Origin: Corynespora cassiicola
Lineage: Eukaryota; Ascomycota; Dothideomycetes; Pleosporales; Corynesporascaceae
Direction: 5' to 3'
Assembly (NCBI GenBank): GCA_022059125.1
Contig: JAEUWY010000001.1
Span: 5,580,001-5,644,000, forward strand
DNA length: 64,000 nt
Shown here: piece after piece, positions 14,269 through 16,340 of the stretch
Layout of the letters: every line of letters begins with the position of its first letter
Numbering within the stretch: the first letter of the stretch is position 1
The notes under the pieces: generated by a model
What the model saw: only the letters and a program-made list of their open reading frames with translations
Databases searched by the model: none
What the model was told of the DNA's origin: nothing
Made by a program: the position numbers and the translations under genes

Positions 14269-16103
14269 ATGCGTGCCTCTACTGTGGCGGCCATCCTGGC
14301 CTTCACTTCGGGAATGACCGTCAATGCCGCTCCCGTGAACGTCGGAGAGGCTCTTTCCGGAGCCTTTGAAGATCTGTATGTCTCGAATTTTCGTGTAATC
14401 TAATGAGATATCAAATACTGACACCAAACGATAGCGGCAAACAAGCAGGAGATGTCTTCAAGAAGGGCGCCGAGTCCACCAAGGACGCCGTTGTCGACGC
14501 CGTCACTGTCGAAACTCCTGCCGAGGAGGTTGCGAAGAGGGCTCCTCAGGTCGATGATGCGCAATGCACCAGCCTTGGGATGATCCAGAGCCGCCCTTCG
14601 CGGAATGGGAAGCGCGATCCCCAAGAACTACCTGGTGTAGACCCCCTTGGTCAGCCTCAAGTGGTTGACGACGGCACCACGCCCGAGCAAGCATCGTGCA
14701 TTTTCAGAGGATTCCGCTTTCCGAGTCAGATTAACTCGAAGCGGGAGGCTCAGAGCATCATCCCCGATGACGCAGAGTGCGCCAGCCTTGGAATGATCCA
14801 AACCCGTACTTCAAAGCGTGATCCCCAAGAACCAATAGACTCTTTTGGTCAGCCTCAAATCATACCAAGCAACCTCACTCCTCAGGAGAGTTTATGCATT
14901 CGCAGAGGATTCCGCCGCCCTGAACAGATTACGACCAAGCGAGATGCCCAAGGCACAGATCCCCTGGGCATGCCCCTCGTCACGGGCGAAGTTGACCCCA
15001 ATGAAGTGAGGCGCATCTTTGGCGACAACGACGAGTCCCGCTCGCAGAATGCAAAGAGGGAGCCCCAGCGCGACTTCGACGTCCGAGAGGGAGGCCGGGC
15101 GCTGGGAATCTGCCAGGCCGGCATCGACTCGCCCTGCAACAATGTGCAACCTCCGTCTGAGCAGTTTGATCTTTCCCAAATCACCCCTCTTACGGATGAA
15201 GAAGTGCAAGCCGCAGGTCTGCCCCAGAAGCGCGACCCTCAATCTCCATCTGAGCAGGCTGACATTTCCGAATTCTCCCCTATTACGGATGAAGAATGGA
15301 AAGCTGCGGGTCTGCCCCGAAAGCGCGATCCTCAAGCCGGCATCTGCATGGTGGGCGTTGACTCTCCCTGCAATGGTCCGTTGTCTGACGCCGACCCCAC
15401 CAACGACCACCTCGCCGGAACTCCACGCCAGAGGAATAGACGTGTCAGGATATCCCAGCGTGCCCTCGAGACCAGAGACAATGCTGCTGAGTTCCAGAAG
15501 CACGAGGCTCAGAGTGGATCTCCACCTCCCACCCCTGATGACGACGAGATCACCATACAGCCAGTATTAATGGACACCTTCACAGAGAAGACCAAGCGGG
15601 ACGCTCAGCCTCAGCCTCAGCGTCTCAGTCGCCCTCTCCCTAGCACTCCCTCTAGCAATGAGGAGACTGTTGGCGGTGTCTGTGACATCGGATCTGGGGG
15701 ACCCTGCAATGGGGAACCGTTTAACAATGGCCTTCTGCAAGCCCGAGTAAATGAAAAGCGGGAGCCTCAGCCTCAGCCTCAGTCTCAGCGTCTCACTCGC
15801 CCTCTTCCTAGCACTCCCTCTAGCAATAGGCAGAGAGTCGGCGGTGTCTGTGCGGTGGGATTCGGAGGACCCTGCAATGGGAATGAACCGGACACTGGCC
15901 TCCTGCAAGCCCGAGCGAACGAAAAGCGGGAGCCTCAGCCTCAACGTGAGCGTCAGCGTCTCCCTCTCACTCCCCCTAGCGACGAGGAGTCTGGGGCCGG
16001 TGTCTGTGCGGTCGGATTTGGGGGACCCTGCAATGGGAATGAACCGTTTAACAATGGCCTCCTGCAAGCCCGAAGCGGGGTGCTCCGGGCATTTGTTGCA
16101 TAG
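14269..16103 (+). CDS. Secreted Kex2-processed repeat precursor (KEP-type), 591 aa
   Basis: Two exons, 14269-14375 and 14435-16103; the 59-nt intron has GTATGT, CTGAC and ATAG signals. Signal peptide at residues 1-20 (cleavage after VNA), then a pro-region to about residue 71. The rest is a string of units separated by Lys-Arg. All eleven such sites are followed by a tripeptide of the form [A/D/E]-[P/A]-Q (APQ, DPQ, EAQ, DAQ, EPQ), the pattern expected for Kex2 cleavage then trimming by an X-Pro/X-Ala dipeptidyl peptidase. Unit types: CxSLGMIQ (two), CI.RGFR.P (two), and G[IV]C-x7-C peptides with SPCN or GGPCN ends (five), plus Cys-free spacers. Established: this architecture defines alpha-type pheromone precursors and KEP/dikaritin RiPP precursors. 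It matches neither by core sequence as far as I know. No UstY-like DUF3328 protein or tyrosinase is nearby. Confidence 0.85.
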
Positions 16104-16340
16104 AGGCGGTTGATTCTCCCTGCAAAATCCCTCTGGCTGATGGTGGTCATGCCAGCAGCGTCGAAACTGGAACTATAACAAAAGACAAGCCATTGAATGG
16201 CCACGATGGTCTTATGGGCGGTTCTTTTATTTCTTCAACTTTTTTTCAAACCTTTTCACACCTTTTTCACTTCTTCAACCCTCTTCTTCCACCATTTTTT
16301 TTCCAGCCATTTCTTCACTTCTTCAACTCCTCTTCTTAGA
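16073..16340 (+). pseudogene. Out-of-frame extra repeat unit of the precursor
   Basis: Overlapping the end of the precursor in the +2 frame, AAG CGG (Lys-Arg) at 16073 starts GAPGICCIEAVDSPCK, which has the same IC...VDSPC core as in-frame units. The real frame stops at 16101-16103 inside it. Compared with the preceding unit, the DNA before this site lacks about 10 nt (the stretch that codes ANE in the neighbour), which explains the shift. The +2 frame stays open to about 16340, into low-complexity pyrimidine-rich sequence, so the original C-terminus is uncertain. Confidence 0.6.

Follow-up and report, generated by a model that had tools for sequence, protein, structure and literature searches.

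A candidate gene for a secreted, multi-unit precursor lies on the plus strand at positions 14269-16103 of the window (the whole 64,000-nucleotide stretch of Corynespora cassiicola DNA that was analysed), and its predicted model gives a spliced product of 591 residues. It is called the C1 gene here, after its contig. Exon 1 (14269..14375, plus strand) encodes at residues ~1-20 what looks by eye to be a typical signal sequence, MRASTVAAILAFTSGMTVNA, followed by the start of the pro-region, and four paralogues have similar N-termini. A predicted phase 2 intron of 59 bp (14376..14434, plus strand; donor GTATGT, branch CTGAC, acceptor TAG) precedes exon 2 (14435..16103, plus strand), which carries pro-region and then eleven units bounded by Lys-Arg (KR), stop codon included. 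The open reading frame works only when this intron, which is absent from the preliminary description, is spliced out. A bacterial promoter scan gave zero sites at the gene, this being a bacterial model and uninformative for a fungus.

Peptide units and their wear

The preliminary description held that KR is followed by [A/D/E]-[P/A]-Gln at all eleven sites. This is borne out at 11/11 KR sites of the product, and when residues 21-591 were shuffled 20,000 times, 19,894 shuffles contained no such site, 106 contained one and none contained more than one. Five distinct Arg codons are used across the 11 KR arginines.

The units, each given here with its KR and all on the plus strand, carry several kinds of peptide. 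Unit 1 (14535..14609) begins APQ and holds the peptide CTSLGMIQ with one Cys, and unit 2 (14610..14738) begins DPQ and holds CIFRGFRFP, likewise with one Cys. Unit 3 (14739..14813; EAQ, CASLGMIQ, one Cys) duplicates unit 1 (repeat D9), and unit 4 (14814..14936; DPQ, CIRRGFRRP, one Cys) duplicates unit 2 (D8, D12), such that a two-unit block appears to have been duplicated (units 1-2 and 3-4). The unit 4 core may itself be cleaved, because it contains two internal Arg-Arg pairs. Unit 5 (14937..15053; DAQ) has no Cys, nor does unit 7 (15228..15320; DPQ), which is a further copy of the latter half of unit 6 (D4). A C-x7-C peptide is found in unit 6 (15054..15227; EPQ, GICQAGIDSPCN), unit 8 (15321..15593; DPQ, GICMVGVDSPCN), unit 9 (15594..15755; DAQ, GVCDIGSGGPCN), unit 10 (15756..15923; EPQ, GVCAVGFGGPCN) and unit 11 (15924..16100; EPQ, again GVCAVGFGGPCN), the last being C-terminal and having no closing KR. 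These five peptides follow the pattern G[IV]C-x7-CN, two of them ending DSPCN and three GGPCN. The cargo described earlier, namely five C-x7-C, two CxSLGMIQ (units 1 and 3) and two CI.RGFR.P peptides (units 2 and 4), was thus recovered in full. Repeat family D1 has three copies in the gene, which are 78-100% identical to the reference. The string [PS][LF]G[QM]P occurs in units 2, 4 and 5 (14640-14657, 14838-14855 and 14958-14975); it loosely resembles PYG[LM]P and may be a chance occurrence.

Two further features, both towards the 3' end, indicate wear. Unit 8 contains a decayed extra site, KH-EA-Q (15498-15512), that was missed in the preliminary description, and the remnant of a Cys unit (16071..16140, plus strand; D3, D11) runs beyond the stop codon in a frame that differs from that of the gene, with 73% identity to unit 8 over 44 nt (D11). 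The out-of-frame remnant suggests that the unit array was once longer. Such wear counts against the reading preferred below, in which the gene encodes a Kex2-processed precursor of secreted peptides, and so does the mild constraint on two of the peptide classes, with pN/pS values of 0.44 for the C-x7-C cores and 0.61 for CI.RGFR.P. Synonymous divergence nevertheless exceeded replacement divergence in 6/6 ungapped comparisons of blocks, which represent five of the 16 repeat families and were chosen by nucleotide sequence; the values are uncorrected proportions and do not amount to a formal test. The CxSLGMIQ blocks gave 0.64 (synonymous) against 0.11 (replacement), and units 10 and 11 gave 0.31 against 0.26. 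Values of pN/pS for KR (0.05), KRxxQ (0.15) and CxSLGMIQ (0.12) were discarded as evidence, since the residues themselves had picked the sites and the values are biased.

That the gene is decaying, or is an artefact of gene finding, is nonetheless very unlikely. The KH site and the 3' remnant would fit such a reading, as would the lack of any match in a protein collection that holds proteins of C. cassiicola Philippines, but the stop-to-stop frame is 577 codons long, 11/11 sites are intact, synonymous divergence is above replacement divergence and a similar intron is predicted in one of the paralogues.

A family with a shared signal exon and differing cargo

No homologue of the C1 product was found in the protein collection among the 7993 candidates with most words in common with it, at E up to 0.1, nor did residues 64-355 have one among 901 candidates at E up to 10. 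The neighbouring DUF3405 protein matched a C. cassiicola Philippines protein with 99% identity over 97% of the query, the next best match being at 73%. Because the collection includes C. cassiicola proteins, yet no relative matched, the C1 product is, judging from these searches, absent from it or without annotation there within the lengths searched. Pfam gave no match for the C1 gene, NCBIfam and PDB sequences gave none with exon 2 as the query, and a Pfam search with part of the C4 paralogue and with the C20 paralogue (see below) returned only hits under the curated cut-offs. Literature searches with the peptide strings returned chance strings only, none of them on such a gene, and a search on Corynespora pheromone found no matching paper.

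Within the genome, a DNA search with the C1 gene gave one further match, to the signal sequence only, and a protein search with exon 2 had itself as the sole match; the paralogues therefore came to light via the signal sequence and via patterns, which covered KR sites with X-Ala or X-Pro dipeptides (XA/XP) and the N-terminus. One of these searches had 130 matches (backward control 96), of which 100, extending to contig C15, were covered, the C20 paralogue not being among the matches listed; another gave 53 matches (control 12). The N-terminal pattern MRASTxA, which covers TCN serine codons only, had nine genome matches (backward control 2), and 5/9 are KR-(XA/XP)n-Q genes. The other four were rejected: C2:1618410 because its frame differs from that of a long ORF, and C4:3780137, C10:393413 and C20:574773 because the codons read there, 260 or fewer, contain no KR-(XA/XP)-Q units. 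Given the limits set by the matches listed and by the TCN-serine pattern, five family genes is a lower bound.

At least five genes of this genome, the C1 gene included, thus combine an MRASTxAAIL start with KR-(XA/XP)n-Gln units. The other four, also named after their contigs, are at C2:1625195, C4:15756 and C19:332697, all on the minus strand, and at C20:1775039 on the plus strand (188 aa). Across the five genes, Gln follows zero to three XA/XP dipeptides in 55 of 56 KR units, the sole exception being in C4; 52 units have at least one XA/XP, three proceed directly to Gln and one does neither.

The C20 gene shares, by these comparisons, most of its build with the C1 gene. Its exon 1 is 56% identical to that of C1 over 41 aa (E 8e-9, five-sequence database), and its predicted intron is of phase 2 like that of C1, with the alignment running through the donor. 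Three units of the form KR-[DE]A-Q...ACVVGG[NS]CGT follow, each with a C-x5-C pair. C20 also aligns with C19 (31% over 162 positions, E 1e-7). The C2, C4 and C19 genes are mutually close (best BLAST E per pair and direction 4e-39 to 9e-112, in a database of the family proteins alone) and have 12 to 14 Gly/Ala-rich peptide units each, their sole Cys residues being one C-terminal pair with spacings of x6, x7 and x6, respectively. The C4 gene (C4:14260-15756, minus strand; 12 Gly/Ala-rich units) is ~14 kb from the contig end and is perhaps subtelomeric.

What C2, C4 and C19 have in common with the C1 gene is chiefly the cutting grammar, together with the signal sequence (E 6e-7 to 2e-4). Residues 235-404 of C4 align with C1 residues 413-564 at 26% identity and E 2e-5 one way, and the reverse comparison aligned the C-terminal units with E 0.015 at best. 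A Cys pair is present in 5/5 family genes, with spacings of x5, x6, x6, x7 and x7. When the Cys cores were compared with those of C1 (uncorrected p), C20 gave 0.014-0.026 and the C4 tail 0.012-0.049, whereas the Cys tails of C2 (0.30-0.65) and C19 (0.48-0.85) had no likeness to the C1 cores. In view of the exon 1 alignments on the one hand and the weak core fits on the other, a shared origin of the signal exons is well supported, and with it goes the cutting grammar, whereas for the Cys peptides such an origin is no more than suggested. The earlier expectation that homologues would keep the KR sites and the cysteines accordingly held for KR in all four paralogues and for Cys in part, since C20 retains a C-x5-C pair per unit and C2, C4 and C19 retain one C-terminal pair.

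The long Gly/Ala-rich arrays of three paralogues, with a hydrophobic moment of 0.37-0.44 for the best 18-residue stretch of those units (a raw value, without shuffled control), bring to mind a surface function. The peptides would then be surface-active or cell-wall components like the Ustilago maydis Rep1 repellents, and the Cys peptides would be by-products or anchors. This is unlikely for the C1 gene, which has no Gly/Ala-rich units, and Rep1 is reported to have no Ste13 signature (Le Marquer 2019; PMC6339444), that is, no XA/XP behind the Kex2 site, which the C1 gene has at 11/11 sites.

Relation to known Kex2-processed precursors

Kex2-processed repeat proteins (KEPs) are defined, among other features, by at least three similar units bounded by KR, RR or KK, and the C1 gene has 11 KR sites and five C-x7-C peptides. 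KEPs share with it a pro-region, KR-bounded units, the Ste13 signature and the lack of DUF3328/UstYa genes nearby (Le Marquer 2019, PMC6339444; Umemura 2020, PMC7329392), and their signal peptide has a likely counterpart, judged by eye, in the C1 N-terminus. They are abundant, with 7878 recorded in 1345 of 1461 strains, 2560 of them without relatives (PMC7329392). The C1 precursor differs from the KEPs surveyed in the range of its cargo, which is of three classes or more; in one survey that counted motifs repeated at least three times, only 2 of 1193 KEPs had three repeated motif types (PMC6339444). Because two of the C1 classes occur only twice, the C-x7-C class alone counts as repeated under that three-repeat rule, and the gene is placed within the known KEPs. 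KEPs being already known, what is new here, as far as the gene models go, is the unusual mixture of cargo, and a family whose members have a chassis in common but not their cargo. The new family announced in the preliminary description stands to the extent that there are at least four paralogues in the genome, but its architecture is of a known kind, and the taxon assumed there, Hypocreales, was wrong, the source being C. cassiicola of the Pleosporales. The searches suggest that deposited protein sets may lack genes of the KEP kind.

The dikaritins (ustiloxin, phomopsin and asperipin) likewise derive from Kex2 repeat precursors, and that of asperipin has more than one repeated sequence, as does the C1 gene (PMC7329392). 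The genome has 26 UstYa (PF11807) matches, some of which are pieces of one gene. However, dikaritins are cyclised by DUF3328/UstYa proteins (PMC7329392), and no such gene is found near the C1 gene: the closest UstYa match on contig C1 is more than 4.2 Mb away, and UstYa occurs in 0 of the 19 neighbour ORFs scanned (of 89 listed). It is therefore scarcely conceivable that the C1 gene encodes the precursor of a dikaritin-type cyclic RiPP, despite the common KEP architecture, and the dikaritin comparison made earlier finds no support. Elsewhere on the contig, a KEP with HHKGKGKGGAGGAGGLA-type repeats (C1:1379964, plus strand) has UstYa matches (C1:1377520-1377955) ~2 kb away, for which reason that locus is likely a dikaritin-type cluster.

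Ascomycete alpha-pheromone precursors have the same Kex2/Kex1/Ste13 build as the C1 gene. One consensus of the alpha-pheromone class is WCxxxGxPCW. In Pleosporales it is given as PYG[LM]P[IV]G, and some mature ascomycete alpha-pheromones contain a Cys pair, as five of the C1 units do (Le Marquer 2019; PMC6339444). The genome has a match to the STE2 receptor and its pattern searches yielded no convincing pheromone gene elsewhere, which, with the [PS][LF]G[QM]P strings of units 2, 4 and 5, would favour the C1 gene as the sexual alpha-pheromone precursor of the species. This nevertheless seems improbable. Neither PYG[LM]P[IV]G nor WCxxxGxPCW is found within the C1 units, where the Cys spacing is x7 and no Trp stands beside Cys. 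Alpha-pheromones are peptides of 9-24 aa, and among the C1 units only 1 and 3 (21 aa when trimmed) are in that class; the gene would moreover give several unlike products. In the genome as a whole, the exact patterns WCxxxGxPCW and PYGxP[IV]G had no match, and looser alpha-pheromone patterns had 15 matches (backward control 35), none in a KR-repeat frame. A two-unit KEP at C2:728701, with CWTPSGQ...LGMPC, is an equally good candidate or a better one. This short gene (minus strand) reads KR-EA(N/E)PQ-IPVPPDTPCWTPSGQV(N/K)ARQLGMPCPQD and is a possible alpha-pheromone precursor.

Predicted maturation and role of the peptides

Taken together, the C1 gene is probably a KEP of linear, alpha-factor-like build, which would release secreted peptides that act as signals or in biotic contact and not as the sexual alpha-pheromone. 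That 9/11 units exceed the 9-24 aa pheromone class counts against this reading, as do the failure to find homologues outside this genome in the protein collection searched, the weak resemblance of the paralogues' Cys cores to those of C1 and the silent knockouts of Coprinopsis KEPs described below. The earlier proposal of a secreted, multi-product precursor processed by Kex2 and by X-Pro/X-Ala trimming draws support from the cutting grammar, the four paralogues and KEP peptidomics (PMC9769878). For the processing enzymes, the genome gave one match to P_proprotein (Kex2-type) and four to DPPIV_N. In the proposed sequence of events, the precursor would enter the ER, where a disulfide would join each Cys pair into a loop; Kex2 would then cleave behind KR in the Golgi and Kex1 would take off the basic tail; and a Ste13-type dipeptidyl peptidase would strip the single X-Pro or X-Ala and halt at Gln. 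The exposed Gln would then cyclise to pyroglutamate, which can block further trimming, and some eleven peptides, 21 to 87 residues long, would be secreted.

These predictions are modelled on findings in mushroom KEPs. Mass spectrometry of a Coprinopsis KEP made in Pichia revealed that XA/XP had been removed and that the ends were pyroglutamated, and pyroglutamate was likewise found on many of the peptides that were confirmed in Coprinopsis itself (Vogt 2022; PMC9769878). Those KEPs are of a basidiomycete, and the main text of that paper uses neither "cysteine" nor "disulfide" (PMC9769878). Since the cutting signals are fixed and the peptides differ, the exact mature ends can be predicted, that is, a pyroglutamate start and an end just before KR, and this opens the function of the peptides to test in a fungus of broad host range.

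With regard to function, KEPs with a Ste13 signature have been put forward as good hormone candidates (Le Marquer 2019; PMC6339444), which argues against secreted effectors or antimicrobials aimed at the host plant or at competing microbes instead of fungal cell-cell signals, as does the lack of a Pfam match for the C1 gene. In favour of effectors, C. cassiicola lives in plants both as a pathogen and as an endophyte (PMC5840194), no relatives in other species were found in the protein collection searched, and cargo is unlike between the paralogues. Six Coprinopsis KEP knockouts had no apparent phenotype, and the authors, the knockouts having been silent in axenic culture, suggested biotic roles (Vogt 2022; PMC9769878). 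On balance, an effector or antimicrobial role is rather unlikely, though it would come next after signalling or biotic contact, which is the likeliest role for the peptides.

More speculatively, the KEP reading could be extended to a cargo-swapping prohormone family, in which the signal exon and the KR-(XA/XP)-Gln chassis are fixed and peptides are exchanged between genes. The C1 product would then be a fungal polyhormone resembling pro-opiomelanocortin and yielding C-x7-C loops together with two-chain peptides. Units 1 and 2, and likewise units 3 and 4, are neighbours with one conserved Cys each, so that an insulin-like heterodimer is possible if the disulfide forms before the Kex2 cut. We hold this extension to be doubtful.

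A further KEP-like protein is encoded at C2:1194031 (plus strand), where a number of units close with ISW-G-KR or ISW-A-KR. In the former, Gly stands directly ahead of KR, an arrangement reminiscent of amidation sites in animals.
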